From Microbacterium sorbitolivorans (GTDB lineage: Bacteria; Actinomycetota; Actinomycetes; Actinomycetales; Microbacteriaceae), in NCBI RefSeq assembly GCF_003327285.1, contig NZ_KZ848475.1, forward strand, positions 310,001 to 374,000: DNA of 64,000 bases, written 5' to 3'. The number at the start of each line of letters is the position of its first letter. Position 1 is the first letter of the stretch. Below the pieces are notes generated by a model. It did no database searches and was not told the origin of the DNA. It saw only the letters and a program-made list of their open reading frames with translations. A program made the translations under genes and the position numbers. Of this stretch, positions 5,921 through 63,739 are shown one piece after another.

Positions 5921-5948
5921 AACGCCGACCCCCGAAGGGATCGGCGTT
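5921..5948 (-). terminator. Rho-independent terminator of the bS22 gene
   Basis: Read on the minus strand, the stem AACGCCGATCCC / GGGGTCGGCGTT has a CTTCG-type loop and is followed by TTTTCGTGTTTT. It begins about 11 bases after the bS22 stop. This is one of the few T-rich terminators in the window. Confidence 0.8.
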
Positions 5949-5959
5949 CGCACAGTCGT

Positions 5960-6058: not shown

Positions 6059-6190
6059 GGGAACCTCACTAATAGTTAGGGGGCTGGAAGCCTGGCACAG
6101 GAGTTGTGCCGACGTCCGGGAACGGAACGGCAGAAAAAGTGCCTCAGAGGATCTTATCGCATACTCGCCCCGGCCACTGTCAGCTAGATA

Positions 6191-6811
6191 TCAGAGCCAG
6201 CCGTTTGCCTCCGCGATCCGGGCCGCGGCCATGCGATTCGCGGATCCGGTTTTCGCGATAGCGCTCGACAAATAGTTGCGCACGGTGCCGGGCGAGAGGT
6301 GCACGGTGCGGGCGATCTCGGCGACCGGATCCCCCGCGAGCGCGGCCCGCAGGATCTCGCGCTCCCGCTCGGAAAGCGGGTTGGATCCGCCGACGAGCGA
6401 CTCGGTCGCGAGCGCCGGATCCACGACCCGCCGGCCCGCGTGGACCGCGCGGACGGCGTCGGCAAGCTCGCCCGCGGGCGTGTCCTTGACGACGAATCCG
6501 CTCGCGCCGACCTCGAGAGCGCGCCGGAGGTAGCCGGGGCGCCCGAAGGTCGTGACGATGAGCGACCGCACGCCGGGCAACTCGTCGCGGATCCGCGCCG
6601 CGGCCTCGATGCCGTCGGCGCCCGGCATCTCGATGTCGAGCAGGCACACCTCGGCCCCGGATTCGCGGGCGGCGCCGACGACCTCGTCGCCGCGCCCCAC
6701 CTGCGCGACGACCTCGATGTCGGGCTCGAGGTCGAGCAACGCGGCGAGCGCGCCGCGCACGAGCGCCTGGTCGTCGGCCAGCAGAATCTTGATCGTCGCG
6801 GTGTCGTTCAC
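6191..6811 (-). CDS. NarL/LuxR-type response regulator
   Basis: This 206-residue protein has a receiver domain with ILLADDQALVRG at the N-terminus and phosphoacceptor Asp at about residue 59 (CLLDIEMPGADG). A C-terminal LuxR helix-turn-helix spans about residues 145-206 (LSEREREILR ... VAEIARTVHLSPGTVRNYLSSA). The start is GTG at 6811, which overlaps the histidine kinase stop by four bases (GTGA). As the last gene of a kinase-regulator pair behind an ABC exporter, it probably controls that exporter in response to a membrane stress or drug. Confidence 0.93.
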   Translation of the reverse strand: MNDTATIKILLADDQALVRGALAALLDLEPDIEVVAQVGRGDEVVGAARESGAEVCLLDIEMPGADGIEAAARIRDELPGVRSLIVTTFGRPGYLRRALEVGASGFVVKDTPAGELADAVRAVHAGRRVVDPALATESLVGGSNPLSEREREILRAALAGDPVAEIARTVHLSPGTVRNYLSSAIAKTGSANRMAAARIAEANGWL

Positions 6812-7914
6812 CAGCGCGCCTCCAATCGTGTTCCCGGATCCGCGGTGCCGACGTCGAAGGATCCGCCGGCGGTCGAGACGCGCTCGCGGAGCCCGCGGAA
6901 CCCGCGCTCGGCCTCGCCCGGCGAGACGCCGATGCCGTCGTCGGTGACGACGATCCCGTCGTGCGATAGCGTCACGACGCACGATTCCGCGCGCGAGTGC
7001 CGCACGACGTTCGTGATCGCCTCGCGCAGCACCCACGCGACGACGATGCGGTGTCGCGGATCCACGACAGACGGATCCGTCGGCAACTCGGCCGCGATGC
7101 CCGCGCCCGCGAGCGCGGTGCGGGCGGCGTCCAGCTCGTCGCCGAGGCGCGCGACGCGGAGGCCCGCGACGGTCGCGCGCACCTCCGCGAGCGACTCGCG
7201 CGCGAGGCTGCGGATCTCGGCGATCTCGGCCTTCGCCCGCGCGGGGTCGATGTCGATGAGCCGCTCGGCGAGCTCTGCCTTGACGGTGACGACGGTGAGA
7301 CTGTGCCCGAGCACGTCGTGCACGTCGCGGGCGACGCGCTCGCGCTCGGCGACGAGGGCCATCTGGCGCTCGATGGTGTCGTGGCGCTCCTGGGCGGCGA
7401 TGATGAGGCGCACGACGCCGACCGACACGTAGACGATCGCGGGCGGCATGAACAGCACGCCGTACTCGCCGAATCCGTCGGGCATCGCCGAGAGCACGAT
7501 CGCGAGCGCCGAGTACTCGGCGATGAGGATCCCGGTCGAGAAGATCACCGCCGTGCGCGCCTCGCCGCAGAACATCGCGAGAGAGATGAGGAAGGATCCG
7601 GCCCCGAGGGCGCCGGGGCCGATCAGCAGGGCTGCGGCGATCATGAGCGCGACCATGACGACGATCGCGGTGATGCCGCGCCGGGCGGCGCGGCCCCAGT
7701 CGTCGCTACGAATCATCCAGATGTAGCCCGCGATGTACACCGCCGCGTACGCGAGCAGCAGGCCGACGGCGAGGCCCCGTGTGCTGTCCGAGACGTCGGC
7801 GTCGAGGGCCGACGTGATCGGGAAGGCCATGAACACGACCCAGACGACGCCCATGACCCAGGCGAATCGCTCCCAGGGCCCCCGCTGCTCGTCTTCCGCC
7901 GTCACATCCCCCAT
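6808..7914 (-). CDS. NarL-type sensor histidine kinase (HisKA_3)
   Basis: This 368-residue protein has about five to six predicted membrane spans in residues 20-160. The dimerisation/phosphoacceptor segment is RERVARDVHDVLGHSLTVV, with the phosphorylated His in DVHD. The ATP-binding domain has an N box in LREAITNVVRHS and a G box in VTDDGIGVSPGEAERGFRGL. There is no obvious extracytoplasmic sensor domain, so it may sense through the membrane or through the adjacent transporter. The ATG at 7914 is chosen for its GGGAGGTGAGAGC ribosome binding site. A palindromic element separates it from the permease. Confidence 0.92.
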   Translation of the reverse strand: MGDVTAEDEQRGPWERFAWVMGVVWVVFMAFPITSALDADVSDSTRGLAVGLLLAYAAVYIAGYIWMIRSDDWGRAARRGITAIVVMVALMIAAALLIGPGALGAGSFLISLAMFCGEARTAVIFSTGILIAEYSALAIVLSAMPDGFGEYGVLFMPPAIVYVSVGVVRLIIAAQERHDTIERQMALVAERERVARDVHDVLGHSLTVVTVKAELAERLIDIDPARAKAEIAEIRSLARESLAEVRATVAGLRVARLGDELDAARTALAGAGIAAELPTDPSVVDPRHRIVVAWVLREAITNVVRHSRAESCVVTLSHDGIVVTDDGIGVSPGEAERGFRGLRERVSTAGGSFDVGTADPGTRLEARW

Positions 7915-7943
7915 GCTCTCACCTCCCTCTCCCCCAACTCCCC

Positions 7944-8031
7944 CGTACACGACGACGGTAATTTTTGCTCCCACGGCCCCGGAAACCGGTGTCCGTCCCA
8001 CTTCGGCCCAAAATTTGCGTCGTTGTGTACG
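7944..8031. repeat. Imperfect 22-bp inverted repeat inside the ABC-TCS operon
   Basis: Positions 7944-7965 and the reverse complement of 8010-8031 match at 19 of 22 bases (arms begin CGTACACGACGACG). The element lies in the 132-bp gap between the permease stop and the kinase start. As RNA it could form a long stem that separates expression of the transporter from that of the two-component genes. Confidence 0.7.
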
Positions 8032-8046
8032 GAGGGCAAGGAATAG

Positions 8047-8808
8047 CTACTGGCGGGCACGGCCGCGGCGGGCGAGCAGGATCGTGCCGATGACCAGCAC
8101 GGCGCCCCAGAAGGCCACGTTCGCGATCGGCACCCACAGCGACTCCTGCGACATCGCGCCGCCGTTCATCGACGCCGCGTAGCCCTCGGTGAGGGGGTAG
8201 CGGGCGAGCGCGACGACGCCGTAGAGCGGCGTGAAGCGCGCGATGTCGAGCATGACGCCGTCGAGCGGGAAGAAGACGTTGCCGAGGAAGCCGAGGATGA
8301 CGAGGGATCCGCTGGCCGCACCGACGGCACCCTCGCTGCGGAACAACAGGCCCGCGAGCAGGCCGAAGAAGCTGAACACGGCGGCGCCGAGGAGCACGAG
8401 CAGGCCGCTCAGGATCCACACGTGCGGCTCGGCCTTCGCTCCCGTGAGCGAGCCGATGATGAAGATCGCTGCGACCGGGATGATCGCGATGACGAAGCCG
8501 ACGGCCGCCTTGGTCGTGACGCGCTGCGCGTCGCTCATCGGCGTGAGGCCCAGCTGGCGTCCCCAGCCTTGCATCTGCTCGACGGCGGCGGATCCGCCCA
8601 CCCCGACCGTCGCGGTGACGGCGCCGTAGGCGGCCATTCCGATCATCACGTAGGCCGCGACGTTGCCGTTTCCGATGTCGATCGTGCCGTAATCCTGCAC
8701 CGCTCCGAAGATCACGTACATGAAGGCCGGCAGCACGGCGACGAAGAACATCGAGACGAAGTCGCGCATGACGCGCACGAGCTCGATGCGGAAGTAGGTG
8801 ACGTTCAT
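8047..8808 (-). CDS. ABC-2 type transporter permease
   Basis: This 253-residue protein has six hydrophobic segments in the ABC-2 pattern. The N-terminal MNVTYFRIELVRVMRDF amphipathic lead is followed by spans at about 20-40, 55-75, 105-130, 140-160, 170-190 and 225-245. It pairs with the ATPase encoded immediately upstream; its ATG overlaps that gene's stop (ATGA). Likely an exporter of a drug, peptide or lipid-like compound. Substrate not predictable. Confidence 0.88.
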   Translation of the reverse strand: MNVTYFRIELVRVMRDFVSMFFVAVLPAFMYVIFGAVQDYGTIDIGNGNVAAYVMIGMAAYGAVTATVGVGGSAAVEQMQGWGRQLGLTPMSDAQRVTTKAAVGFVIAIIPVAAIFIIGSLTGAKAEPHVWILSGLLVLLGAAVFSFFGLLAGLLFRSEGAVGAASGSLVILGFLGNVFFPLDGVMLDIARFTPLYGVVALARYPLTEGYAASMNGGAMSQESLWVPIANVAFWGAVLVIGTILLARRGRARQ

Positions 8809-9725
8809 GATGCGTTCCTCTCGGTGAGCAGGCGGAAGGCGTCGTCCATGCTCCCCGCGGAGATTTCGAGGTCGTGGGCCTCGAGCCCGGTCAGCAGGGC
8901 CCGCGCGACCGCGTCGGAGTCGGCGGCGGTGACGACGAGCCGCCCGGCATCGGCGGTGACCGCCAGCACCTCGGGCATCGCCTCGAGCGCGGCGACGGTC
9001 TCCTGCTGCCGAGAGGCGGGAACGTATGCCTGCACGCGGCGCCCCGTGGCGGTCGCGCGGATCTCGGCCGTCGTGCCGTCGGCGACCACGCGCCCGCCCG
9101 CCATCATCACGATGCGCTGGGCGAACGAGTCGGCCTCTTCGAGGTAGTGCGTCGCGAACACGACGGTGCGGCCCGCGCGGGCGTCCTCGCGCATCGTGGC
9201 CCAGAACTCGGCGCGCGCCGTGACGTCCATGCCCGCGGTCGGTTCGTCGAGAATCAGAAGCGACGGATCCGGGAGCAGCGCGAGCGCGAAGCGCAGCCGC
9301 TGCTGCTCGCCGCCGGAGCACTTCGACACCTTGCGCTTCGCGAGCGACGTAATGTTGGCGCGTTCCATGGCCGCGTCGACGGGCATCGGATCCTTGAACG
9401 TCGACGCGACGAGCATCATCGTCTCGCGGACCGACAGGTCGCGGAGCAGGCCGCCCGTCTGCAGCACAGCGGAAACATGGCCGGCGCGGATCGCGCGCCG
9501 AGGAGCTTCCCCGAAGACCGACACGCTACCCGCTGTCGGGGTGGTCAGGCCGAGCACCATGTCGAGCGTCGTGGTCTTGCCCGCGCCGTTAGGGCCGAGT
9601 AGCGCAACGATCTCGCCACGCGGGATACTCAGGTCGACTCCCCCGACGGCCGTGAAAAGGGATCCGCCGGTACGGAAGTCCTTCACCGCGCCGCGCAGCC
9701 CTATCGCTTCGTTTTGCTGGTTCAT
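8805..9725 (-). CDS. ABC transporter ATP-binding protein (drug-export type)
   Basis: This 306-residue protein has the Walker A motif GPNGAGKTT (about residues 44-52), the signature CSGGEQQRLRFALAL, Walker B LLILDEPTAGMD and an H-loop in FATHYLEEAD. A C-terminal extension of about 80 residues is typical of the DrrA/CcmA-like exporter ATPases. It is the first gene of a four-gene unit running ATPase, permease, histidine kinase and response regulator, an arrangement common for bacitracin- or lantibiotic-type detoxification modules. Confidence 0.92.
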   Translation of the reverse strand: MNQQNEAIGLRGAVKDFRTGGSLFTAVGGVDLSIPRGEIVALLGPNGAGKTTTLDMVLGLTTPTAGSVSVFGEAPRRAIRAGHVSAVLQTGGLLRDLSVRETMMLVASTFKDPMPVDAAMERANITSLAKRKVSKCSGGEQQRLRFALALLPDPSLLILDEPTAGMDVTARAEFWATMREDARAGRTVVFATHYLEEADSFAQRIVMMAGGRVVADGTTAEIRATATGRRVQAYVPASRQQETVAALEAMPEVLAVTADAGRLVVTAADSDAVARALLTGLEAHDLEISAGSMDDAFRLLTERNAS

Positions 9726-9844
9726 GACTCAAGCCAACCGCTCAAACCGGTGCGGAGCGATCCCCCGCTGTCACGAGGCGCACGTGACGAATGTCATATT
9801 CAATGGCCTTGACCGCGGACCCTCCATCCTGCTACTTCGTCGAT

Positions 9845-10816
9845 ATGCGGTTGCGGAAAACAAGTCCCCAGGACCCAGGGATCACGAGGATCCGCCGCGG
9901 CCGCGGCTTCGAGTACCGCGACGCGAGCGGCGTGCACGTGAGCGATGACGACGAGCTCACGCGCATCCGGGCGCTCGCGATTCCGCCCGCGTGGCAGGAT
10001 GTCTGGATCTGCGCGCGGCCCAATGGTCATCTGCAGGCGATTGGTATCGACGGCGCAGGGCGCACGCAGTATCTGTACCACGCGGATTGGTCGCGCCGAA
10101 CGGCGGCGAGGAAGTTCGATCGTGCTCTCGCGCTCTCCGAGAGGTTGCCTGCCGTACGGCGGCGCGTCACCCTCGACCTCCGGCGGGATGGCTTCGTCCG
10201 CGAGCGAGTGCTGGCCGGAGCGTTCCGCCTGCTCGACACGGCGCTCCTGCGGGTGGGATCCGAACGCTACGCCCAGGAGAACGGCACCGTCGGGCTCACG
10301 ACGTTGCGCGGCGAGCACGTCGTCGTCGACGGAGCGACGGTAGCGCTATCGTTCATCGGCAAGAGCGGCGAGCCGTGGGAGCGCACGTTCGACGACCCGG
10401 ATCTCGCCGCGTTGCTCGCGGAGCTGACCCAGCGCGGACCCGAGGCTCAGGTGCTGTCGTGGCACGACGGCGAGGGCTGGCACCGGCTACGCCCGGCCGA
10501 CGTCAACGACGACCTGCGAGCCCTGGCGGGCGCCGATACGAGCGTGAAGGACGTGCGCACCCTGCGCGGCACGACGATCGCGGCGCGCACACTCGCCCGA
10601 TGGGGCGTCGAGGCAACGGACGCCGCCCGGAAGCGCGCGATCGCCGCGGCATCGCGCGAAGCCGCGGCGGCCCTCGGCAACACCCCCTCCGTCGCCCGGG
10701 GCTCCTACATCGATCCGCGAGTAATCGACCGCTACGAGCACGGTGTCGTGGTGGCCGATGGCACGATCGCGCACGTCGAGGGCCAGCTCGCGGGCCTTAT
10801 CGGCGGGCGCTCCTGA
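9845..10816 (+). CDS. DNA topoisomerase IB (pox-type)
   Basis: This protein of about 323 residues starts RLRKTSPQDPGITRIRRGRGF, the usual N-terminus of bacterial type IB topoisomerases. Catalytic features include the RYAQENGTVGLTTL block (conserved Arg and Thr), the KSGEPWE segment, the DVRTLRGT block carrying the second Arg, and the active-site Tyr in GSYIDPRVIDRYEHG near the C-terminus. It relaxes supercoils through a 3'-phosphotyrosine intermediate. The ATG at 9845 is chosen because homology begins there; an ATG at 9791 is possible. No clear ribosome binding site was seen. Confidence 0.92.
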   Translation: MRLRKTSPQDPGITRIRRGRGFEYRDASGVHVSDDDELTRIRALAIPPAWQDVWICARPNGHLQAIGIDGAGRTQYLYHADWSRRTAARKFDRALALSERLPAVRRRVTLDLRRDGFVRERVLAGAFRLLDTALLRVGSERYAQENGTVGLTTLRGEHVVVDGATVALSFIGKSGEPWERTFDDPDLAALLAELTQRGPEAQVLSWHDGEGWHRLRPADVNDDLRALAGADTSVKDVRTLRGTTIAARTLARWGVEATDAARKRAIAAASREAAAALGNTPSVARGSYIDPRVIDRYEHGVVVADGTIAHVEGQLAGLIGGRS

Positions 10817-10920
10817 TACTCGTCCTTCTCCGCCCCCGCAAGCCCCTCTTTTTTCCACGGCCACCCCGTAACGCTTTTGTGAGAGCACCACTTGTCACAT
10901 CCGGACGAAGGAGAAAATAT

Positions 10921-11622
10921 ATGCCCGAACAAGACTCAGATGCCGTTGGCCGTGTAATCGTCACCGGCGGCTCGTCGAGTCTCGGCGCCGCGGTCGTCGA
11001 TGCGGTTCGTGCCGCCGGCGGGTTGCCCGCGGTCATCGATCGCGTTCCGCTCGCAGACAACGGTGCCACGCCGTTCGCGTTGGCAGACGTATCGAACCGT
11101 GTTGATATGGACCACGCCATCGCGGCTCTCGCAGCTGAGCTCGATGGGTTCGATGCCCTTGTCACGGCGGCAGGCATCGGTCCGGGCGGATCCGGAGAAG
11201 GCGATCCCGCCGAATGGGAACGCGCAATCGGCACGCATCTCATCGGAACGATCGCTGCGGTGCGCGCGGCGGTCCCTTATCTGGATCCTGTTCGAGGGCG
11301 CGTCATCATTGTCGCGGTGACGCCCGGAGGCTCCGGTACCGGCTACTCGGCTCCGTATCGCGCGTCCGAGTGGGGGGTCAGGCAGTTCTCGCGAGATCTC
11401 ACCGAGAACCTGCACGGGGGCTACAGCGTGACGACGATTCTCGCGGAAGAGAACCGCGTTCCGTTCTCCGACTCCGGCTCGAACGGCCTTGCACCGGGCG
11501 CTCTCTGCGACAGCCCGGTCGACGTTGCCGAGACAACCCGGGCGATCATGATCGCCCTTCGGCAGCCGCGCGATGCGGACATCGCAGAGCTCGTCGTGCG
11601 CCCTCGCAAGGGAGGGCGCTGA
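10921..11622 (+). CDS. SDR-fold protein lacking the catalytic lysine
   Basis: This 233-residue Rossmann-fold protein has the dinucleotide loop VTGGSSSLG at about residues 14-22, an acidic DVSN turn and an NAG-like VTAAGIG strand end. The classical YxxxK active site reads YRASE, so the lysine is replaced by glutamate, and the usual catalytic Ser position sits in an atypical TPGGSGTG segment. Known SDR chemistry needs that Lys, so the protein is either non-catalytic, for example a sensor or scaffold, or uses other chemistry. The start is fixed by AAGGAGAAAATAT just upstream. GGATCC density and neighbour context drop from here on. Confidence 0.8.
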   Translation: MPEQDSDAVGRVIVTGGSSSLGAAVVDAVRAAGGLPAVIDRVPLADNGATPFALADVSNRVDMDHAIAALAAELDGFDALVTAAGIGPGGSGEGDPAEWERAIGTHLIGTIAAVRAAVPYLDPVRGRVIIVAVTPGGSGTGYSAPYRASEWGVRQFSRDLTENLHGGYSVTTILAEENRVPFSDSGSNGLAPGALCDSPVDVAETTRAIMIALRQPRDADIAELVVRPRKGGR

Positions 11623-11715
11623 CGCTCTTGCTGGCGACGTGAGCCCCCGTCCAGGAATCGTTCGTCGGGAAGTCACCCCCTCGACGCGGGCGGCTCCGAG
11701 CGGTGTCATAGGCGC

Positions 11716-12571
11716 ATGACGGCCCATCTGATGTCCATCGGCACGGCGAACCCGGAGCAGATCGTCGCTTCGGCCGACTTCGGCGACGGCGCCGGGGCGG
11801 CGGTCGCCGCCTTCGCCCCCCGCACAGGCGAGCCACGCATGGAGATCGGCGAATCCTCGACGGCCATCAACTCGGAGTGCGAGGCCATAGGGACTGGTCG
11901 ATCGGCGACCATGGCTTCAAGATGGTGCTCACGGCACAGGTGCCGCGAATCATCGGTCGAGAGATCGGGGGCGTGGCCTCGGCGATGCTCGGGAAGGGCG
12001 TCGATCAGGTGTCCGCGGTCGACGCTCGGGCGGCGCACCCGGTGGGCGTAGCGAGCTCGACCACGTGCAGACGAGGCTCTCGCTCCCCGACGAGGCGATG
12101 GGATACTCCCGGGATGTGCTGCGCGACTATGGCAACATGTCGTGCGCGACGATCCTGTTCATTCTGAGGCGCATCGAGAGGGCGAGCGAGTCCGGGATCC
12201 GCCGGGTGCTGCTTCGCCGGCTGCGCCGCAGCCGTGTCTTCGTCATCGGCGACGCCGCGCACGAGATCAGCCCGATAGGCGGGCAGGGCATGAACCTGGG
12301 ACTGCTCGACGCGGCGACGCTGGCACCCGCGCTCGCCCACTGGCTGAGAGAACCCACGGATCTCCGGCCCGTCGACCGCTGGGAGCGCGACCGGCTCGCC
12401 TCTGCGCGGACGGCCGCGAACCTCGCGGGGATGAACACCGCAATAGGCCAGGCGCGCGGGGTCGCCGGTCACGCCGCGGCAATGGCGGCCGTGCGCGCGG
12501 CCGCCGCCACGCCGCTCGCGCGGTTCGCCGCCCACGCCCACGGCATGGGCCTGGACCGCAGTGTCAGTTGA
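11716..12571 (+). pseudogene. Remnant of a type III PKS gene joined to the end of a flavin hydroxylase gene
   Basis: The first part encodes type III polyketide synthase segments in three different frames. FGDGAGAAVAAF lies near 11780, WSIGDHGFKMVLTAQVP lies near 11897 in another frame, and then comes a damaged active-site His block (AAHPVG in place of AVHPGG). The third frame carries LDHVQTRLSLPDEAMGYSRD and YGNMSCATILFILRRI with the active-site Asn. Without a break the last frame continues into RVFVIGDAAHEISPIGGQGMNLGLLDA, the FAD-binding C-terminal motif of UbiH-type monooxygenases, and ends at 12571. At least two frameshifts and one deletion are needed. The gene pair resembles the srsA/srsC phenolic-lipid genes of Streptomyces, with the methyltransferase between them lost. 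Confidence 0.85.
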
Positions 12572-50347: not shown

Positions 50348-53300
50348 TTAGCTGTTGCTGCGGCGGCGGCTGGTGGCGAACCACACGCCGGCACCGGCGA
50401 TCATCAGCAGAGCGGCGGCGCCACCGAGCGGCAGGGCCATGTCACCACCCGTGGGCGACAGGTCGCCCTTCTTCTTCTCGTACACCTCGAAGGTGGCCGA
50501 GATCGAACCGGACGTCGCACCGGTCAGCTCGACCGAGTGGTTGCCGAGCTCCGAGGAGGCCGGGACGTTCCAGGTGAAGGTGACGTCACCGTTCTCGTCG
50601 GCAACACCGCTGCCGATCGAGTACGGGGTCGAGTGCTGAACGGCCGTAACCTTCTCGCCGGCGTCGAAGCCGTGACCGTGAACGGTCTGCTTCTCGCCAA
50701 CCTGGAGGCGGGGCTGCTCGATGTCGATCGACAGGCTCTTGGCGTCAGCGTCGGCCGAGGCGTTCGCGTTCGCGGAGGCGCTGGCGTTCGAACTCGAGTT
50801 CGACGAGGCGCTGGCGTCAGCGGTCGACGACGACGAGGCGTTGGCCGAAGCCGACGAGTTGTCGTCCGAGTCGCTCGCCGTGTCGGAGTCGCTTGCGCTG
50901 TCCGAGTCGCTCGAGGTGGCCGAGTCGCTAGCCGAAGCCGAGTCGGAGTCGGTCTCGCTCTCCGAAGCAGCGTCAGCGTCCGAGTTCGTGTCGGCCGTGG
51001 TGGCCGAGTCGGAGTCGGTTGCGGCGGCGTCTGCGTCGCTGTTGGTGTCAGCGGCGGTCGAAGCCGTGGCGTTGGCCGAAGCCGCAGCCGACGAGTCGTC
51101 GTCCGAGTCGCTCGCGCTGTCGGAGTCGGTCTCGCTCTCCGAAGCAGCGTCAGCGTCCGAGTTCGTGTCGGCCGTGGTGGCCGAGTCAGAGTCGGTCGCG
51201 GCGGCGTCTGCATCGCCGTTCACGTCAGCGGCAGCGGTCGACGAGGCCGTCGACGACGAGTCAGCGTTCGATGCCGACGAGGCAGCAGCCGCGGCATTTG
51301 CCTCGGCGGCCGACGAAGCGTCAGCGTTCGAGGTCGACGTGGCGTCGGTCTGGGCCGCGGCCTGAGCAGCGGTCTGAGCGGCAGCGTTCGTCTCGGTCGT
51401 CGCGTCAGCCGAAGCCGTCGTCGACGCGTCGGTGTTCGCGGCCGACTCGGCAGCAGCCGAAGCGTCAGCGTTCGCGGCGGCCGTAGCCGTCGTGGACGCG
51501 TCCGCCTGAGCAGCAGCCTGCGCGGCAACCTGAGCGGCAGCGTTGCTGTCGTCATCAGCGTTCGCCGAAGCGGAAGCCGAGGCCGAAGCGTTCGCGTTCG
51601 TGTCCACGTCAGCGTCAACCGCGGCGTTCACGTCAGCGTCAGCATCAGCGTTCACGTCAGCGGCAGCAGTCGACGAGGCCGTCGACGACGAGTCAGCGTT
51701 CGATGCCGCCGAAGCAGCAGCCGCGGCGTTCGCCTCGGCGGCCGACGAAGCGTCAGCGTTCGAGGTCGACGTGGCGTCGGTCTGGGCCGCGGCCTGAGCA
51801 GCGGTCTGAGCGGCAGCGTTCGTCTCGGTCGTCGCGTCAGCCGAAGCCGTCGTCGACGCGTCGGTGTTCGCGGCCGACTCGGCAGCAGCCGAAGCGTCAG
51901 CGTTCGCGGCGGCCGTAGCCGTCGTGGACGCGTCCGCCTGAGCAGCAGCCTGCGCGGCAACCTGAGCGGCAGCGTTGCTGTCGTCATCAGCGTTCGCCGA
52001 AGCGGAAGCCGAGGCCGAAGCGTTCGCGTTCGTGTCCACGTCAGCGTCAACCGCGGCGTTCACGTCAGCGTCAGCATCAGCGTTCACGTCAGCGGCTGCG
52101 GTGGCCGAAGCCTCCGACGACGAGTCAGCGGTCGATGCCGCCTGAGCAGCAGCTGCAGAACTCGCGTTCGCATCAGCGGTCGCCGTCGCGTCAGCAGCCG
52201 TCGAAGCGCTCGCGTTGGTGTCCGACGTGTTGTCGGCCTGAGCAGCAGCCGTCGCCGAAGCCTGAGCCGCCGCGTTCGTCTCGGTCGTCGCGTCAGCCGA
52301 AGCCGACGTCGACGCGTCAGCGGTCGCAGCCGACTCAGCAGCAGCAGTCGCGTCGGCGTCCGCGGCAGCCGAAGCCTCCGACGTTGCGTCAGCAAAGGCA
52401 GCTGCCTGTGCGGCAACCTCAGCCGAACCGTTGCTGTTGTCATCGGCGTTCGCCGAAGCAGCAGCCGAAGCCGAAGCGTTCGCGTTCACGTCAGCAGTCG
52501 CGCTGCTGTCCGTGTCCGAATCGGTGCCAGCAGTCTCTGTGACGGTCAGCGATCCCTCAGCGGGGACGTTCGACTCGTCACCTGTCGCAATGACGCTGTA
52601 CGAGTTAGCGGCGGTTCCAGCAGGAACCGTGTAGTCGTACGAGAACGTGCCGTCGTCGCCAACCACAACATCTGTGGCCACGGTCTCACCATCGATCTCG
52701 ATCGTCACGGTCTCGCCGGGGGCGAAGCCGTCACCCGTGATCGTAGTGGTCTCGCCAGCCTCGACCGAGCTGGGGTCAACCGTGATGCTCGTGTCGTAAA
52801 CGACCGCGTCGAAGTCACCGCGAACTGTCGCGGATCCGAGAGCGAGCTGGAGGATCGGCGCGTTCGGCAGGAGCGTGAGCTCGAGGGCACGTTCGGTGAA
52901 CGTGTCCTCCGTGTTCGTTGCCTGCTCGCTGGTGAAGTCACCGCCGTACTCCTGCACGTTCGCGGTAAGCGAGAGCAGGTTGTTGGTAACGAGCCCAAAG
53001 AGCGGGTCAAGCACGTCGTTAGCCGCCTGGACGATCGGGCGGAAGATCGTGTCCAGCGCGCCCGCATCCGTAATCGCGTTAGAGAGCGGCGTAACGAGCG
53101 CGGGAAGGATCGTATTGGTCACGGCCTGGAGCACGGGCTCCAACAGGGTACCGACCGGGAGCCCAACAAGCGTGGTGCCCGAGGTATCCACCGTCGGTGT
53201 CGACGAGCCCGCGGCGCCAATGAAGTCGCCGAGCGTGCCGGCGAGTCGAACGTCAAGCTGACCGATCGAAACTGCACCAAACAGGCCGTTGATCTCGCCC

Positions 53301-54433
53301 GTGATCGCAATGTTCACGGCCGTGGAGTTCAGCGCGTCGGTGACTGCAGTCACAAGCAGCGCCGGAATCTGGTCGAGAGTCGAACCGATTGCTCCGTCAA
53401 GCGCGGCCTGGACGAGGTCCGGGTCGAGCAGCTCGGTGTTCGCATCCAGCCCGTTGAGCGTGCCGTCGTAGTCCCCACCCTGGGTGTCGGCAACAAGCTT
53501 CGCAATGTCGACGCTCACCGTACCGGCGCTCAGGTCGATCGTGAGAACGCTGTCCTCGGACGTGAGCGGCTGCGCGAGTACGGAGTCGAGGGCCGCGGCC
53601 AGGTCGACGTCCACGGTCGCGGTAACGCCGAGGTCGTCAACACTTCCGACGCCGAGGAGAACCGTATTGAGTGCGGTCGTCACGCCGTCGAGAAGCGGGT
53701 CGATCGTGGTGTCGATGACTCCACCGGCACCAGCAAGGTCGTTGATCGGGCCGGAGATCTGATCCAGCGAGGCGAGCAACGCGGCCGAAAGGTCACCGAT
53801 CGCGGGGCTTTGCAGGATCAGCGTTCCGCCGGCGATCTGGTAGTCACCCGACGGGGCGTTGTCCGCATCGACCGTGGCAGACGCCGAGATCGCACCAAGC
53901 TCAAGGCGCGCCTGGTCAAGAAGCGCGTCGAGGCCTGCCGCACCGAGGATCGGTGCGAGGTCAAGGTAGGCATTCTCGGCCGGGTCCGTGCCGGTAGCCG
54001 GGGCAATGGCGCCCTCTTCGCCAAGGAGGCCACTCGACGCGTAGGCCGAAGCGTCCGTCGTGTTGGCGTACTGTCCGACGGCGCCAAGCCCGAGGACAGG
54101 GTTCTCACCAAACAACTGGATGCCGTCGCCGAGCGAGATGTCAAGCGCGCTCAGAAGCTCCAGGTCAAGCGAGCGCGAGTTTGCACCGGGCGCACCCGGA
54201 GTTGCCGAGTAGGCCGGCGCAACCTCGGCGAGCCCATTGACCACGGCGGCCAGGTCGCCGTCGAAGGTCAGGAATCGCCCCTCAGCTTCGGCGACATCGT
54301 CCGGAGCGGCGTTTGCTGCCATCGTACCCACGCCGACGAATGCCGTAGCGATCGCGCAAGTGGTGACAACACCCCCGACCCGCTTTGCTGTGAGCCAGGG
54401 CTTCACCCGTGGCTGCTGCTTTTCAGCACGCAT
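50348..54433 (-). CDS. Choice-of-anchor G surface protein with long Ala/Ser/Asp repeat stalk
   Basis: This 1361-residue secreted protein starts with a signal peptide ending near AANAAPDD. A choice-of-anchor G head spans about residues 50-570 (LGLGAVGQYANTTDASAYAS; SGLLGEEGAIAP), and an Ig-like domain about 575-660 (ITGDGFAPGETVTIEIDGE). A stalk of about 560 residues made almost only of Ala, Ser, Asp, Asn and Thr follows, with two nearly identical 144-residue repeats. Then come a second Ig-like domain and the wall-sorting end LSPTGGD, a hydrophobic helix and SRRRSNS. GAGGGGA precedes the ATG. The 273-bp gap upstream holds no gene. Only one GGATCC occurs in 4 kb. Confidence 0.92.
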   Translation of the reverse strand: MRAEKQQPRVKPWLTAKRVGGVVTTCAIATAFVGVGTMAANAAPDDVAEAEGRFLTFDGDLAAVVNGLAEVAPAYSATPGAPGANSRSLDLELLSALDISLGDGIQLFGENPVLGLGAVGQYANTTDASAYASSGLLGEEGAIAPATGTDPAENAYLDLAPILGAAGLDALLDQARLELGAISASATVDADNAPSGDYQIAGGTLILQSPAIGDLSAALLASLDQISGPINDLAGAGGVIDTTIDPLLDGVTTALNTVLLGVGSVDDLGVTATVDVDLAAALDSVLAQPLTSEDSVLTIDLSAGTVSVDIAKLVADTQGGDYDGTLNGLDANTELLDPDLVQAALDGAIGSTLDQIPALLVTAVTDALNSTAVNIAITGEINGLFGAVSIGQLDVRLAGTLGDFIGAAGSSTPTVDTSGTTLVGLPVGTLLEPVLQAVTNTILPALVTPLSNAITDAGALDTIFRPIVQAANDVLDPLFGLVTNNLLSLTANVQEYGGDFTSEQATNTEDTFTERALELTLLPNAPILQLALGSATVRGDFDAVVYDTSITVDPSSVEAGETTTITGDGFAPGETVTIEIDGETVATDVVVGDDGTFSYDYTVPAGTAANSYSVIATGDESNVPAEGSLTVTETAGTDSDTDSSATADVNANASASAAASANADDNSNGSAEVAAQAAAFADATSEASAAADADATAAAESAATADASTSASADATTETNAAAQASATAAAQADNTSDTNASASTAADATATADANASSAAAAQAASTADSSSEASATAAADVNADADADVNAAVDADVDTNANASASASASANADDDSNAAAQVAAQAAAQADASTTATAAANADASAAAESAANTDASTTASADATTETNAAAQTAAQAAAQTDATSTSNADASSAAEANAAAAASAASNADSSSTASSTAAADVNADADADVNAAVDADVDTNANASASASASANADDDSNAAAQVAAQAAAQADASTTATAAANADASAAAESAANTDASTTASADATTETNAAAQTAAQAAAQTDATSTSNADASSAAEANAAAAASSASNADSSSTASSTAAADVNGDADAAATDSDSATTADTNSDADAASESETDSDSASDSDDDSSAAASANATASTAADTNSDADAAATDSDSATTADTNSDADAASESETDSDSASASDSATSSDSDSASDSDTASDSDDNSSASANASSSSTADASASSNSSSNASASANANASADADAKSLSIDIEQPRLQVGEKQTVHGHGFDAGEKVTAVQHSTPYSIGSGVADENGDVTFTWNVPASSELGNHSVELTGATSGSISATFEVYEKKKGDLSPTGGDMALPLGGAAALLMIAGAGVWFATSRRRSNS
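51225..52087. repeat. Two tandem 432-bp repeats inside the surface-protein gene
   Basis: About 51225-51655 and 51657-52087 are nearly identical at DNA level with a period of 432 bp (for example CGACGAGGCC at 51239 and 51671), that is 144 codons. A more diverged third copy covers about 52088-52500, and a shorter 177-bp repeat lies at about 50941-51225. The near identity, including silent sites, points to recent duplication or gene conversion and to likely length variation between strains. Confidence 0.88.
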
Positions 54434-56880: not shown

Positions 56881-59800
56881 TTACTGCTGGGTGCGTCGAC
56901 GGATCGCGTAGACCGCCACACCACCGACCAGCAGCGTCGCGCCCAGCGCACCAAGCGGCAGCGCCATGTCGCCACCCGTCGGGTTCAGCTCGCCCTTCGG
57001 CGTCTGCGACGGGGCCGGCGTGGGAGCCGGGGCCGGGTTCGCCGTCGGCGTCGGAGCTGGCTCCGGCGTCGGCTCGTCCGAGGGGGCCGGGCTCGGCTCC
57101 TCGGTGGGCTTCGGCTCCGGATCCTCGGTCGGCGCCGGCGACGGGTACTCCGTCGGCCGCGGTTCCGGATCCGCCGTCGGGGTCGGCGACGGAAGATCCG
57201 TCGGCTCCGGGGTCGGTTCCTCGGTCGGCGTCGGGACAACCGGCGTCGGATCCGTGGTGGGCTCAGGCGTCGGGGTCGGCTCTTCCGTGGGCTCCGGCGT
57301 GGGAGTCTTCGTCGGGGTCGGCTCGTCGGTGGGCTCAGGCGTCGGAGTCGGCTCGTCGGTCGGCTCCGGCGTAGGAGTCGGGTCCTCCGTCGGCGTCGGC
57401 TCCGGCGTCTCCGTCGGAGTCGGGTCCGGCGTGGGAGTCGGGTCCTCCGTCGGCGTCGGCGTCGGGGTCGGGTCCTCCGTCGGCGAAGGCGTCGGGGTCG
57501 GGTCCTCCGTCGGCGAAGGCGTCGGCTCCGGCGTCTCGGTCGGAGTGGGCTCCGGCGTAGGAGTCGGGTCCTCCGTCGGCGTCGGAGTCGGAGTCGGGTC
57601 CGGCGTCGGGTCCGGCGTCGGGGTCGGATCCTCAGTCGGCGTCGGAGTCGGATCCGGCGTCTCAGTCGGCGTCGGCTCCGGCGTCGGCTCGGTGGCCGGG
57701 TCATTGGCGATCGTGACGGGGCCCGACGAGCCGTCGGCGCGGATCGTCGCCGTGAAGGTGACGCCTTCCTCCGGCTGTTCGTAGCCCTTCGGCGCCTTGA
57801 CCTCGGTGATCGTGTAGGTACCGGCGGGAACCTGGTGGTCGGCGGTCTCCGGAACCACGATCGCGCTGTCGCGACCGGTCTTCGGGTCTTCGATCATGAT
57901 CTGGCCGTCGACGACGAACGCCTCGTCGGTGATCACGGATCCGTCGGGGCCGGTCACCGTGAACCGCGCGGTGCGGTCGGTGATGACCGTGTTCGGGTTG
58001 TCGGAGTCGGTCTTCAGAATCTGCAGCGGGTAGCCGTCAGAGCCCGTCACCGTCGCCTGGGCGCTACCGATCTTGTTCGTCGTGCCGACGTTCGCGACGA
58101 ACTCGTCGGCGTCGGTGTACGAGTCGATGCGCAACTTGAAGTTCACCCACGGGCTCTTGCCGTTAAGCGTCGTCCCCTCGCGCTGCGAGATCGTGACCTT
58201 GCCGTCGGTCACGGTCGCCTGCAGGTTGCCATCGAGGTCGACCGTCTGCGACGTGTTGAGCGTGTCGTTGTCGAGGTTCTCGTCGTTCACGAAGCCGAGG
58301 AAGGTCGTGCCCTCCGGCAGGTTGTCGACGATGTCGAGGATCGCGCGGTTGGCGTAGCTGCCGTGCGGCAGCACCGAGATGCGGAACACGAACTCGCTCT
58401 GCACCGGCAGACCGTCGGCGCCGAGCTCGACGCGCAGGTTCTGCGACCACTCGCCGTCACCGGCGTAGACGTGCTTCTGCACCTCGAGCTCGTTGCCGTA
58501 TGAGGTCGCGGATCCGGTGGCGTCGTTGACCCACTCGAAACCGTTCTTCGTGCCGCCGACGACCGACGCGCTGTTCGACACGTCGATGGTCTGCTTGCCC
58601 TGGACGACGTGCGTCATCAGGGTGAAGGAAATCGAGAGGTGCTTGTTGAGCGCACCTTCCGGCTTTGCCCAGGTGAGCTGCGAGCCGAACGAGTCGCTCG
58701 CCTCGAAGACGAGGTCGCCGTCGTCGGCGATCGAGAGATCGAAGTCGTCGCCGGAGAGGCCGTTCTCCCAACCGTAGGAGCCCGTGATCGAGTCCTTGAT
58801 CGCCGCGAGCGTGTCGTCGGTGACGTTGAACACGTCGTGGTTCACGTGGTCGAGGATCTTCGACTGGCCGAAATCGACGATCGCGTTCTCCGTCAGCGTG
58901 AAGGTGAAGGTGACCGGGTACGCCTCGCCCTTCGTCATCTTCGGTAGCTCGCCGACGGTCTTGTTGAAGGCGTTGTCGTCCTTGACCTCTTCGCCGGCAT
59001 CCTTCGGGATGACGAGGAAGTTCTGGCCGTAGCGGTGGTCGAAGCCGCCGCCCGCGCCGTTGTAGTAGAAGTCGGCCGTGTTCGCGGCCTGGTACTTCTT
59101 CGCGATTTTCGCGTCCCAGACGCCCTGTTCGTTGGCGCCCTCGATGCTGACGATCTGGCCGGGGACGGTGAGGATCCACTTCTCGGTGGTGTCCTGGCCG
59201 ACGTTCACGCGGAAACCGCGCGAGCCATCCTCGCGGTCGAACCACTGGTACGTGCCGACGTAGTCGTCGCCGAAGAAGTCTGCGACGCTGACGCCGGTGG
59301 CCTCGGTGAGAGCGCGGGCCTCGCCGTTCACCGTCGCGGTGATTGTGCCGCCGAGAACGATCGCGGGCTGCTCCGGGAAGTCGTTGATGACGACGTTGTG
59401 CGAGAGCGCGTAGCGCGTGTCCGCGTACTCCGCGAACTGCGTCAGGTCGGCCTGCAGCGTGTAGGTGACGTCGATCGGCTCGGTGAGCGTCTTGCCGTCC
59501 TCATCCAGAGCGATCGTCTGGTCGCCCTGGACATCGACGCTCTTCGCAAACGCGGCACCCGTGTTGGGGCGCGAGTCGCCCGGCACGTTTGCGCCCACAC
59601 CGAAGCTTCCGGTGGTCTCGCCGGCGCCGTTGATCGTGGCCGAGTTCTTCAGGTCAACGCCGAACCACCCGCCGTTGCCGGTGTTGGCGTCGATGACCTT
59701 ATCGGCCTGCACCTGCAGCGCGTCCCGGAGCGCGTCGACCTTGTCGGCCGAGACGCTGGCGGTGTAGCTGATCGTCAGAACCGACTGCTCCGGCAGGTCG

Positions 59801-60663
59801 AGGCCCGAGATCTCGAAGCTCTGGCCGTCGAAGCTCAGGCCCGCGAGGTCGATGTCGTCAACCGACTTGTTGAGGCCGTTCTCGTCCCACGTCGTGAGCT
59901 TCGCCGTGAAGCTGCCCTGGTTATAGGCGAGGTACTCAGAGATGGTGTCAGAGACCACGGCGCCGGAGCGCGCGTCGGCCGAGTTGAGCGTGAGGGTGTA
60001 CGCGACGGTCGCGTCGGTGATTCCGTCCTTCAGCGCCACCTTGCCGGTCTTGGAATCGAACGACACGTACGAACTCAGGTTCTGGTTGTCGACGTTCTTG
60101 CGCAGGCTGTTGTCGATGTTCCACGCGAACTGGTCGTCCGGGTCCTTCACGATGACCTCGTCGACGCTCGTCTGGTCGTCGAGACGCCACTCGATCTCCT
60201 CGTAGCTCGAGCCCGTCGTGGGCTCGTCGAAGTCGAAGGTGAAGTCGTAGAAGCCCTGGTTGTTCGCGAACGTCTCGCCGAACGTGACGACGAGCTCGTC
60301 GCCCTCGCGGACCACGCTGGCGATCGCCTCGTTGTCCTTGAGCGAGAAGTCGACGAGGTCGATCCCGTCGGGAACCCCGATGCGAACCTTCTGCCCCGGC
60401 GTGACCTTCGTGAGGTCATACGCGATCGAGGCGGTGTACGACGTACCGGGCTTGACGACGGTGGTGCCGTCGTACGTCTCCCCGCCGTACGTCACCGTCA
60501 GCGTGACGCCGTTCGACGTCACGGGCGCCGCAACCGCGGCGGCAGGAACGACGAGGCCCAGAATGGCCACGGCGAACGCGAGCACGGCCGCGAAGGCCGT
60601 CTTAAATGATCTGCGGATCCCGCGCTGAGGCAGCACGGAGCCCTCGGAAACGTGTTTGTGCAC
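56881..60663 (-). CDS. Wall-anchored fimbrial/adhesin-like protein with Pro-Thr stalk
   Basis: This 1260-residue protein starts with a Sec signal peptide ([23 protein letters not shown]), cut near AVAAP. Several beta-rich adhesin domains follow to about residue 880. They resemble isopeptide-forming Ig-like folds, with repeated 'Y.v.N.asV' and 'D.[10 protein letters not shown]' elements. A SpaA/prealbumin-like domain spans about 890-990 ([29 protein letters not shown]). A stalk of about 230 residues of Pro/Thr/Glu/Asp repeats and the sorting end LNPTGGD, a helix and IRRRTQQ complete it. It probably acts in adhesion. It is divergent from the LuxR-type ATPase regulator. Confidence 0.9.
56990..57700. 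repeat. Short-period repeat encoding the Pro/Thr/Glu stalk
   Basis: The plus strand repeats GGCGTCGG, GTCGGGTCCTCCGTCGGC and similar words; the minus strand encodes [14 protein letters not shown]-type repeats. The plus strand is strongly G-rich over A, giving local strand skew and many closely spaced GG runs. Unit length varies in steps of two to six codons, which fits slippage. Confidence 0.8.
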
Positions 60664-60854: not shown

Positions 60855-60872
60855 TTACCCCCGAGTTACCCC
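60855..60872. promoter_or_regulatory. TTACCCC direct-repeat pair 1
   Basis: TTACCCC occurs at 60855 and 60866, start to start 11 bp, on one face of the helix. It lies about 190 bp upstream of the surface-protein start. The same arrangement recurs at 61150 and 61161. Confidence 0.5.
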
Positions 60873-61149
60873 TCGGGGTTACGCAACCGTTACCGCCGCA
60901 GGAAGCGAGAGGGGTGCGGGGGCTAAGAGCTCCACTTCCTAGCTCCCGCGGGGCGAACCGAGGTTCTGCCCGTGTGCGAGAACCGCAACAGTGGCGGCCT
61001 CGCGGTGCGTGGATCCCGCTGAGGGGTCGGGATCCCACGCGAGGTGGCACCAGCATCGGATCCGCGAAAACACGGCGTCCGGAGGTGCACGCTCCACTGT
61101 GCCGCACGAATCTCGGGATTCGTCTGACACCCATCGGCCTGGCGCGAAG

Positions 61150-61168
61150 TTACCCCAGATTTACCCCC
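61150..61168. promoter_or_regulatory. TTACCCC direct-repeat pair 2
   Basis: TTACCCC occurs at 61150 and 61161 with the same 11-bp phasing and four-base spacer as pair 1, about 160 bp upstream of the LuxR-type gene. The match in both sequence and spacing suggests a binding site for one regulator, plausibly the adjacent one. Confidence 0.5.
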
Positions 61169-61327
61169 ATCTCCCTCTCGCAGCGTGAGGCACAAGGGCG
61201 AAGAATAGGAGGTTTTTCGGCCCGCGGCGACGCGCATCACCCCGAACCTCCGTACAGTGATCTGTGGGGAAACTTTTTCGTGCCTCCGCGCGTAGCCCGT
61301 GCGCGTGGAGGCTTGGACGGAGTGTGT

Positions 61328-63739
61328 ATGCGGGGCGGCCGAGAGAACTATGTTTACGCTACCCATGTGGGGGTACCGCATCTCGTTGTAGTTCGTGGAT
61401 CCGCCGGGATCGGCAAGACCGATCTCGTGCGTCGATGGACGTCGAACCTGCCCGGCGCGGCCGTGCTCTGGCCTCACATCACGCCGCCGCGGAACGCGCA
61501 TAATTTCTGGATGCGCGTCATCACGCAGCTTCACGCGCGCGGCTGGATCAACGATCAGGAGCTGTTCGCCGCGATAGAGCGCGCGGGCGCACCCGATGCC
61601 AACATCCGCGACATCACGGGCGAGGTGCTCGGGCTTGTATCCGAGGCGCCCGTTCTCGTGATCGACGACCTACACGGCGTGCTCGACGACGGCATCTACC
61701 TCGAGATCCTCGGCGACCTCGCCGCCTTCCTACATGGCAACGAGCGCATGCGCGCCATCATCGTCGAGACCACCCCGTCCGATCTCGAGTCGATCGATCT
61801 GCCGAAGCACATCGTCGTCGACGAGTCGTATCTCCCGCCCGTCGCGTTCCTCGGCGAGGTCGCCGACAACCGGATCCGCTACCGCTCCCCCGCGCCCGGC
61901 CTGCGCACCCTCGTGCAGGATCCGGCGCGGCTGCGCGACGCGTGCGTCGCCGCGATCCCGCACGAGATCGACGCCGAGACGGCGTCGCTGCTCACGGGCC
62001 GCGACGGATCCGCGCTGCTCGAGACCTTCGCGCGCTGGGGTCTCGGATCCGTTCAGACGGCCGGCTGCGCAACGCGATTCGTGTTCCGCACGGAGGTGCG
62101 CGCCGAGGCGATCGCCGAGCTGCGGAGCTCATGGCCCGACGCTCTGAAGGTCGCGGCACAGCAGCTCGCGGCGCTCGCGGCATCGCACGAGCACTGGGAA
62201 CTCGCGTTCGAGTACGCGCTCCTCTCCGACGACGCGGCACTCATCACGCGCGTCGGTCTGCGGGTGCGCCCGTTCCCCATCGAGCTCACGCCGGATGTGC
62301 TCGAGGCCGTCGCCGCGATCCCGCTCGCCCAGGTCCGCGCGAACCCGCTGTTGAGCCTGCTCGCCGCCGCGTCAGCCGATTACCTCCCGCGCCCCGACCA
62401 GTCGGCGATCGAGCTCTACCGCCACACGGCCGATGCGGCGCACAACGTGCGTCGCGGATCCAGCGCGACCGAGCGGCTCGTCATGCTCGGCATCGAGTCG
62501 TTCGCGCTACGCCGGGCGGGGAACATGACCGCCGCGGTGAGCACGGCGCAGGCCTTCGGCGAGCGTGCCCAGTCAATGGCCGCCGAGCATGCCGTTGATC
62601 CCGACCTCGCTCACATCTTCGCGAACTTCGCGTATCAGGCCGCCGTCACCCTCGTCATGGGTGACGAGTTCGCGGGCGCCCTATTGCTTCTGCGCGCCCT
62701 CGAGCACTACGCCCTCGCCAACGGACTCGACGCATCGCGGCAGTTCGCCCTCGCGGCCCTCGGGTTTCTCGAGGCGCTGAGCGGCGCGATCCCCTCGGCG
62801 AAGGCGCTTGCGCGCGCCCTCGACGCACCACCCGCCCCGGTGGTGGATCGCTCGCGCAGCTACCACGCCTTCGTCGACGCCGCCGCCGTGATCCGGGCCG
62901 GAATGGTCGGCGACTTCTCGGCGCTCCAGCGCGCGGTCGCGACGTTCCGCGCTCGGCCGCACGAGATGCTGTGGGACATCCTGCTCTTCGGCGAGGTTCT
63001 GCTCGACATCGCCGGCGGAAACGCGGGCGCGGCGCGCGTGCGCTTCGACGAGGCGGTCGGCGCGAACCTCGGCCCGTCAACAAGCCGCACGACGACCCGC
63101 CGCGCGAGCTACATCCGCGCCGTGCTCGTGTTGCTCGGCGAGAATCCGCGCCTACTCAGCAACACCGGATCCCGCATGAAGGATGACCCCGCGTCGCTCG
63201 CATTCAGCGCCGGGCGCGACATCGACCAGGGCGACATCGAGGCGGCGTCGGCCAAGCTCAGCAAGGCCGCCGCCGGCGCGCGCACGCCGCTGCAGGAGCA
63301 CGTCGTGTTCACGATGCTCGCGCGCCTCGGCATCGCCGAGAACGATGCCGACAGCACACGCGACTCCGCGAGTCACCTGCTGGTGCTCGCCCGCACCCAC
63401 AAGCTACGGATCGCGTTCGCCCTGCTCTCCGACGACGAGCGGATCCGGATCCTCGAATCGCTCGGCTCGCCAGCCGAGCTCCGCGCCGCGTTCGCGGTCA
63501 CGCACCCGCTCTCGAACGAGAGCGTCGCGTCGAACGCCACGATCCTCACGGCGCGTCAGCTCATCGTGATCCGCGCGCTCGCCGAAACCGGGAGCCGCCA
63601 GGAGGTCGCGAGGCGCCTCTTCCTCTCGCCCGGAACCGTCAAGGCCCACCTACGCGCGATCTACAAGAAGCTCGACGCCCACAACGAGGCCGAGGCGCTC
63701 TACCGCGCCGCCGCCCTCGGGCTGTTGCAGAAGGACTAG
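61328..63739 (+). CDS. Large ATP-binding LuxR-type regulator (LAL/MalT-like)
   Basis: This protein of about 803 residues has the Walker A motif RGSAGIGKTDL (about residues 23-33) and Walker B VLVIDDLHGVL (about 108-118). A helical-repeat middle region follows, then a C-terminal LuxR helix-turn-helix (LTARQLIVIRALAETGSRQE; LFLSPGTVKAHLRAIYKKL). This is the layout of large ATP-binding LuxR regulators. The ATG at 61328 places the P-loop unusually close to the N-terminus; the frame extends upstream to 60914 without similarity. Divergent placement next to the adhesin gene suggests control of surface proteins. It is convergent with the VanY gene; the two stops overlap (CTAG). Confidence 0.88.
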   Translation: MRGGRENYVYATHVGVPHLVVVRGSAGIGKTDLVRRWTSNLPGAAVLWPHITPPRNAHNFWMRVITQLHARGWINDQELFAAIERAGAPDANIRDITGEVLGLVSEAPVLVIDDLHGVLDDGIYLEILGDLAAFLHGNERMRAIIVETTPSDLESIDLPKHIVVDESYLPPVAFLGEVADNRIRYRSPAPGLRTLVQDPARLRDACVAAIPHEIDAETASLLTGRDGSALLETFARWGLGSVQTAGCATRFVFRTEVRAEAIAELRSSWPDALKVAAQQLAALAASHEHWELAFEYALLSDDAALITRVGLRVRPFPIELTPDVLEAVAAIPLAQVRANPLLSLLAAASADYLPRPDQSAIELYRHTADAAHNVRRGSSATERLVMLGIESFALRRAGNMTAAVSTAQAFGERAQSMAAEHAVDPDLAHIFANFAYQAAVTLVMGDEFAGALLLLRALEHYALANGLDASRQFALAALGFLEALSGAIPSAKALARALDAPPAPVVDRSRSYHAFVDAAAVIRAGMVGDFSALQRAVATFRARPHEMLWDILLFGEVLLDIAGGNAGAARVRFDEAVGANLGPSTSRTTTRRASYIRAVLVLLGENPRLLSNTGSRMKDDPASLAFSAGRDIDQGDIEAASAKLSKAAAGARTPLQEHVVFTMLARLGIAENDADSTRDSASHLLVLARTHKLRIAFALLSDDERIRILESLGSPAELRAAFAVTHPLSNESVASNATILTARQLIVIRALAETGSRQEVARRLFLSPGTVKAHLRAIYKKLDAHNEAEALYRAAALGLLQKD

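Follow-up and report, generated by a model that had tools for sequence, protein, structure and literature searches.

Candidate Tandem Operators of a MalT-Like Regulator beside a Surface Protein Gene in Microbacterium

RESULTS

Phased TTACCCC pairs flank the region between a surface protein gene and a regulator gene.

Within the 64-kb stretch of Microbacterium sorbitolivorans DNA that we analyzed (the window), two pairs of the heptamer TTACCCC lie between a surface protein gene and the divergent gene of a large LuxR-type ATPase. We think it probable that these pairs are tandem operators of this adjacent MalT-like regulator, within a wider Microbacteriaceae module of LAL (large ATP-binding LuxR) regulators and giant surface proteins. 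The sites are conserved in related genomes, lie at regulator and surface protein loci, and co-occur with one regulator clade, and a variant of the repeat is in excess at loci of this kind. The initial annotation had proposed the pairs as candidate sites of the adjacent LuxR-type ATPase. Comparison supports this assignment well: the candidate sites track the regulator clade across species and recur at the surface protein loci of relatives.

TTACCCC occurs on the + strand of the window at 60855, 60866, 61150, and 61161, which makes a left (60855 to 60872) and a right (61150 to 61167) candidate operator pair TTACCCC-N4-TTACCCC, each with a period of 11 bp and a spacer of 4 bp (CGAG and AGAT, respectively). 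Read in the sense of the surface protein gene, the left pair is GGGGTAA-N4-GGGGTAA; the right pair stands 178 bp ahead of the start codon of the regulator gene. Two weaker candidate half-sites, TTACGCA (60879) and TTACCGC (60890), follow the left pair at 13 and 11 bp and extend the left array on the same strand (60879 to 60896, 11-bp period), together making GTTAC-N6-GTTAC at 60878 to 60893. The initial annotation thus gave the four positions, the equal four-base spacers, and the flanking genes correctly, but it missed these two weaker half-sites, and the left array is longer than it stated.

The paired pattern is rare. With up to 2 mismatches, it is found at just two sites in the window, versus 0.04 expected, and in none of 100 shuffled windows did two paired matches occur. 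The exact pair is present twice in the 3.06-Mb genome, at 60855 and 61150 of this locus and nowhere else. Pairs with 1 mismatch number zero, and the five with 2 mismatches all lie elsewhere; one of these five (G000:C2:154675) is at recognizable LAL and surface protein genes. At up to 3 mismatches, the 72 matches are nearly equaled by the reversed control (58 matches), and we therefore regard only near-exact TTACCCC pairs as exceptional and informative. The window holds a second large sorting-type surface protein gene (50348 to 54433, 1361 amino acids [aa], with long Ala/Asp/Ser-rich repeats), upstream of which no TTACCCC pair was found.

The flanking genes encode a sortase-type surface protein and a MalT-like regulator.

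The divergent gene on the left (56881 to 60663, − strand) encodes a secreted surface protein of 1260 aa with a hydrophobic N terminus, a SpaA domain, a Pro-rich stalk, and a C terminus that by eye is of the sorting type (NPTGG, a transmembrane segment, and an Arg tail), as in sortase-anchored proteins. The gene on the right (61328 to 63739, + strand) encodes a regulator of 803 aa that is best described as a MalT-like LAL protein. Its N-terminal ATPase module carries the Walker motifs GSAGIGKT (A) and VLVIDDLH by sequence; Pfam support for an AAA_16-like N terminus is weak, because the match (E value of 5.7e-6) scores 27.4 bits against a curated cutoff of 32.6. The C-terminal LuxR-type helix-turn-helix (HTH) matches GerE at residues 739 to 791 with 45 bits (E value of 8.2e-12). 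An AlphaFold model, built with two sequences and weak overall (mean pLDDT of 59), is helical in the middle of the protein, from about residue 255 to residue 725. Its top fold match is 6mfv, a STAND ATPase with tetratricopeptide repeats, at a low TM-score of 0.32 by query length. The second match, at a TM-score of 0.15 by query length, is 8bob_C, one chain of an entry that deals with how the maltose system is negatively regulated; MalT domain III (1hz4) ranks 37th.

The pairs recur at regulator loci of relatives.

An orthologue of the regulator with 62% identity is found in M. nanhaiense, where the divergent arrangement is kept. The right pair of M. nanhaiense, which aligns with that of the window, reads TTTACCCC-GCG-GTTACCCC with a period of 11, and its left array reads TTTACCCC/TTTACCCC with a period of 12 and includes a third, weaker unit, much as the left array of the window includes weaker units. 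Since the spacers differ between the two species, the half-site is the conserved part. The locus was found also in Microbacterium genome G057.

More distant relatives, with regulators of about 30 to 41% identity, carry pairs as well. These are ATTACCCCGAAATTACCCCC ahead of a second regulator gene in G195, ATTACCCTCGGGTTACTCCC between the regulator and a 1589-aa surface protein in G043, ATTACCCCCCGGATACCCCC at the regulator locus in G103, TTCACCCCGCGCTTCACCCC ahead of a 2141-aa surface protein in G148, and CTTACCCTCGGGTTTACCCCC upstream of the adhesin gene in G142, where the regulator gene lies downstream of the adhesin gene. Pairs matching at least 12 of 14 positions with a period of 11 to 12 are thus present at seven loci (the window, G057, G195, G043, G103, G148, and G142). 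At each of the seven, none of 500 dinucleotide shuffles reached the best pair score, G148 having entered this test after its pair had already been seen; at the LAL locus of G295, 1 of 500 shuffles did so. The position of the G142 pair, on the adhesin side and not on the regulator side, suggests that the adhesin is a target. The region upstream of the G142 regulator itself held no pair (best score of 8/14), so autoregulation would not be universal. The neighboring surface proteins belong to different families (SpaA and DUF11/DUF7927), and the conserved unit is therefore regulator plus operator, not one particular adhesin.

In a scan of 54 LAL upstream windows, which stopped short of the pairs in G195, G103, and G142, a TTACCCC-type pair was found in six: the own genome (G000), G057, G043 (listed twice), G148, and G295. 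It was not found at near relatives of the G148 LAL in G183, G245, and G032. LAL genes are tandemly duplicated at the G195 (L069, G195:C27) and G043 (L070, G043:C5) loci, with some copies lacking Walker A and one G195 copy split across two frames.

The initial annotation had also suggested looping of the 295 bp between the two pairs, and this was not borne out. In M. nanhaiense the two arrays are 312 bp apart, equivalent to 29.7 turns versus 28.1 turns in the window, so helical phase is not kept. At the more distant loci, a single pair was seen in the stretches from G043, G103, G148, G195, and G142, those of G195 and G103 being cut by contig ends.

The exact pair is nearly confined to this regulator lineage.

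Among 295 Microbacterium genomes, the exact TTACCCC pair occurs five times, against three times for the control, and is absent from 291. Four of the five copies lie beside the LAL gene of the window or its orthologues; the fifth is within a coding sequence (G211). A search of 398 family genomes returned three exact pairs (control, one), namely, the two in the window and one in G399, at the end of an open reading frame (ORF) that we judged integrase-like. The G211 and G399 pairs were taken as chance matches.

When the 398 family genomes were searched with the regulator alignment, 28 of them proved to contain LALs at an E value of ≤1e-30. At 22 of 55 LAL loci, which are the better-scoring matches and not a random draw and which include near-identical relatives, the LAL gene directly adjoins an open frame that is 1000 aa or longer and ends in a sorting-type C terminus. 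ORFs, sorting signals, and LALs were called throughout from open frames, codon-position GC, and regular expressions.

A variant repeat is in excess at other LAL and giant surface protein genes.

We searched for the variant TTTCACCC because one 2-mismatch site in the own genome, TTTCACCCCGGTTTCACCCC, adjoined a second LAL gene; it lies just after that gene and before a surface protein gene cluster. In this second LAL module (L165, G000:C2:148000-167000, at 4243 to 12521), the TTTCACCC pair has a period of 11 and is found at 6674. It shares its strand with the downstream gene, which is the reverse of the usual orientation. The cluster, whose ORFs we take to resemble SipW/TasA, ends in a sorting-type protein. 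Phased pairs upstream of other surface genes, which the initial annotation had proposed to look for, are present in sister genomes in the variant form TTTCACCC; the own genome offers just this one further candidate.

At 57 loci (0.95 Mb) picked by LAL homology, some of them from near-identical relatives, TTCACCC repeats are spaced 11, 12, and 13 bp apart 1, 12, and 4 times, respectively (17 in total). The remaining spacings between 8 and 60 bp together account for 4 cases, and the reversed word gives 2. On a broader scale, the genus sample yielded 20 exact copies of TTTCACCC-N4-TTTCACCC, spread over 19 of its 295 genomes, and the family sample yielded 18, in 16 of 309 genomes and 12 of 85 genera; neither sample contained a reversed control. 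In the own genome, the period-12 pair showed no clear excess at up to 3 mismatches (6 matches versus 3 controls).

A scripted count, made for genus and family sites alike, placed 13 of the 20 genus pairs immediately ahead of a LAL gene or a giant open frame. The script accepted a site that lay within a frame by as much as 320 bp where that frame was open at its 5′ end, and it took in one 2938-aa frame (L199) that is only a near fit to the sorting rule. G136 and G035 were empty in this count because the gene ran beyond the stretch; adding them from other stretches (the G035 frame opens at the site) gives 15 of 20. In the family, where 17 of the 18 sites were counted (the G076 site falls in both the genus and the family samples), 7 of 17 lie upstream of such genes. 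Four of these genes are of the sorting type and one encodes a LAL; the other two are giant frames that fit neither class, L230 having a LAL-like end and L228 being doubtful and on the same strand. At all scored sorting-type genes, the repeat is on the opposite strand, and it reads GGGTGAAA-N4-GGGTGAAA in the sense of the gene. The pairs that lie away from such genes (5 of 20 genus sites and 10 of 17 family sites) may reflect chance, other targets, or the limits of gene calling. In three family genomes (L225, L227, and L228), exact TTTCACCC pairs share similar neighborhoods with frames that look endonuclease-like by eye and with no recognized surface gene.

The TTACCCC type follows one regulator clade and its recognition helix.

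We built a tree of 52 LALs, taken from the better-scoring matches with near-identical relatives included and those shorter than 700 aa left out. The window regulator falls in a clade of eight proteins from six genomes (support of 100/100), all of them at pair-bearing loci. The pair label needs 3 changes on this tree, a number that none of 500 label shuffles matched or undercut, with gene 1 of G195 and gene 2 of G043 scored as pair bearing through sharing a locus with a pair.

The recognition helix of this clade is LSPGTVKAHLRA, with variants; three of the helix rows were read by eye from the tree alignment. The residue before T-V-K is Gly in six, Ala in one, and Ser in one of the clade proteins and Asn in none of the eight, versus Asn in 42 of the 44 other LALs of the tree. 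Likewise, seven of the eight clade helices have His where 43 of the 44 others have Gln. Three shorter LALs outside the tree (L130, L133, and L136) also have His, and as L130 combines it with TTTCACCC pairs, His alone does not set the half-site. At loci where a pair was found, absence of the Asn goes with TTACCCC and its presence goes with TTTCACCC. The link from helix to half-site is an imperfect correlation over few independent lineages and no proof. If clade, helix, and half-site do covary, they would show, as a small recognition code, how GerE-type helices choose their half-sites, and pairs of regulator and adhesin might then be predicted from sequence.

Other identities of the sites are unlikely.

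Of the alternatives, the one we would give some small weight is that an OmpR-family response regulator, for example, MtrA, binds the pairs and that the LuxR-type gene is only a coregulated neighbor. The MtrA motif has the form GTWAC-N6-GTWAC, which matches the left array exactly at 60878 to 60893, and 3 of the 41 sites in the genome (up to 1 mismatch) fall in the operator region. With this consensus, enrichment over the genome is slight, however, at 41 sites versus 33 for the control. MtrA is expected in all Microbacterium genomes, yet the exact TTACCCC pair is missing from 291 of 295. The variant TTTCACCC lacks the GTTAC core, and its spacing is mostly 12 to 13 bp. In Streptomyces coelicolor, MtrA is reported to recognize two imperfect direct repeats of 5 to 6 nucleotides within an 18-nucleotide site (PMC5650626).

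Slightly less probable again is the idea that PhoP binds the wider TTTCACCC pairs as PHO boxes, which would place the surface proteins in a phosphate regulon. The S. coelicolor PHO box has the core GTTCACC, and PHO boxes consist of direct repeat units of 11 nucleotides, 7 of them conserved and 4 less so (PMC4415409), which comes close to TTTCACCC-N4. The pairs in the window have the 11-bp period, but they read GTTACCCC and TTTACCCC, without this core; the variant does contain TTCACC, yet its modal period is 12 bp, then 13 bp. Exact TTTCACCC pairs are moreover present in just 19 of 295 and 16 of 309 genomes, with their excess at giant surface proteins and LALs. We set the PHO box reading aside because of period and distribution. 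Neither MtrA nor PhoP would explain why the sites follow one LAL clade.

It is very improbable that the GGGGTAA repeats serve as promoter elements, such as the −10 boxes recognized by a sigma factor of the SigB/SigF type, rather than as regulator sites. GGGTAA does resemble such −10 boxes, but this reading would not explain why the repeats are duplicated in tandem one turn apart or why they correlate with the LAL clade. Chance occurrence, for which the small genome excess at up to 3 mismatches (72 versus 58) and the accidental look of the lone exact pairs in G211 and G399 might be cited, is refuted by the confinement of exact pairs to this locus in 3.06 Mb, by four of five genus copies lying at LAL loci, by the shuffle tests (0 of 500 at each of seven loci), and by the 20 variant pairs versus 0 reversed.

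A tandem-operator model and its closest known counterparts.

For the putative operators of the adjacent MalT-like regulator, we infer binding, oligomerization, activation rather than repression, autoregulation, and a sensed ligand as follows. ATP and the ligand would drive the regulator into an oligomer, with a single C-terminal GerE HTH occupying each TTACCCC. With one-turn spacing, the GerE domains of neighboring subunits in the oligomer could sit next to each other along a single face of the DNA helix. The divergent gene for the sortase-type surface protein would be under the control of the left array, and the right pair, at the window locus, would control the regulator's own gene. In the wider Microbacteriaceae module, LAL regulators would be linked to giant surface protein genes with an upstream tandem operator of the TTTCACCC type.

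A broader proposal, for and against which we hold the balance to be even, is that dedicated MalT-like STAND switches form a family in the Microbacteriaceae, with links to giant cell wall surface proteins. All would read one type of tandem operator that faces the surface gene. Its letters (TTTCACCC or TTACCCC) and period (11, 12, or 13) would have changed in step with the recognition helix, so that different adhesins of one genome come under separate and insulated control. To our knowledge, few actinobacterial targets of LAL-class regulators have been described. The pairs offer a concrete, testable candidate operator for such large regulators and link them to giant surface proteins. Among the matches listed from the open-access literature, as judged from titles and the starts of abstracts, there was no report of LAL or LuxR regulators tied to sortase-type surface proteins or of the repeat.

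A LAL regulator with a direct-repeat operator is already known in type, and the module is no new kind of system. MalT of E. coli and Klebsiella and the LAL subfamily share with the window regulator an N-terminal nucleotide-binding module and a C-terminal GerE HTH; their helical middle may have a counterpart in the helical part of its weak model, and the MalT-related entries among its fold matches are those at ranks 2 (8bob_C) and 37 (1hz4). The sites of MalT are two decanucleotides in direct repeat (PMC6099782). The site here is TTACCCC or TTTCACCC and not the MalT decanucleotide, and the flanking target is a cell wall surface protein rather than sugar catabolism. TpdR of Rhodococcus jostii TMP1 is a LAL of 788 aa; the promoter on which it acts carries a direct repeat in two 15-bp copies, and one of these copies is essential (PMC6099782). 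TpdR is an actinobacterial LAL activator similar in size to the window regulator, but it controls tetramethylpyrazine degradation, and its repeat length differs.

Two other LuxR-type systems resemble the half-site. RamA, a LuxR-type regulator of Corynebacterium glutamicum, has half-sites of the form A/T/C-CCCC-N or A/T/C-GGGG-N, several per promoter (PMC4847777). This half-site is close to the ACCCC of the window. RamA is small and has no ATPase, unlike the window regulator, and we know of no strict one-turn phasing of its sites. NarL and NarP carry a GerE-type HTH and differ from the window regulator in being receiver-domain response regulators. Their heptamer, TACYYMT (PMC4886647), overlaps the TACCCC of the window, and NarL heptamers are cited as an inverted repeat (PMC6099782).

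Hairpin-capable elements and a candidate promoter lie in the same intergenic region.

The inventory of the region in the initial annotation did not include two hairpin-capable elements between the arrays, H1 (60916 to 60949) and H2 (61006 to 61041), neither of which is assigned to a strand. M. nanhaiense has the same H1 loop, AGAGCTCCACTTCC, and G195 has a similar one; the H2 loop is CTGAGGGGT, with TGAGGG in G195. The stems of both have changed with pairing kept, and in the window, M. nanhaiense, and G195 alike, H1 and then H2 precede the right pair. In comparison with shuffles, H1 of the window is not more stable (z of 0.60 on the + strand and −0.14 on the − strand), and H2 has z values of −2.29 (+) and −1.96 (−). 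The M. nanhaiense values are −1.57 for H1 and −0.97 and −0.68 for H2, the G195 stretch has a z of −2.27, and the whole 261-nucleotide region has z values of −2.48 (−) and −0.89 (+). An Rfam search with the hairpins gave no match up to an E value of 5. That the loops are conserved while the stems vary is a hint of a structured transcript, in a comparison of three sequences whose folding energies are mostly no better than those of shuffles.

Beyond the right pair, a candidate −10 element of the regulator gene, TACAGT, lies at 61253 to 61258 on the + strand. By-eye comparison aligns it with TAAGGT in M. nanhaiense and TACTGT in G195, and a conserved CTGTGGG follows it.
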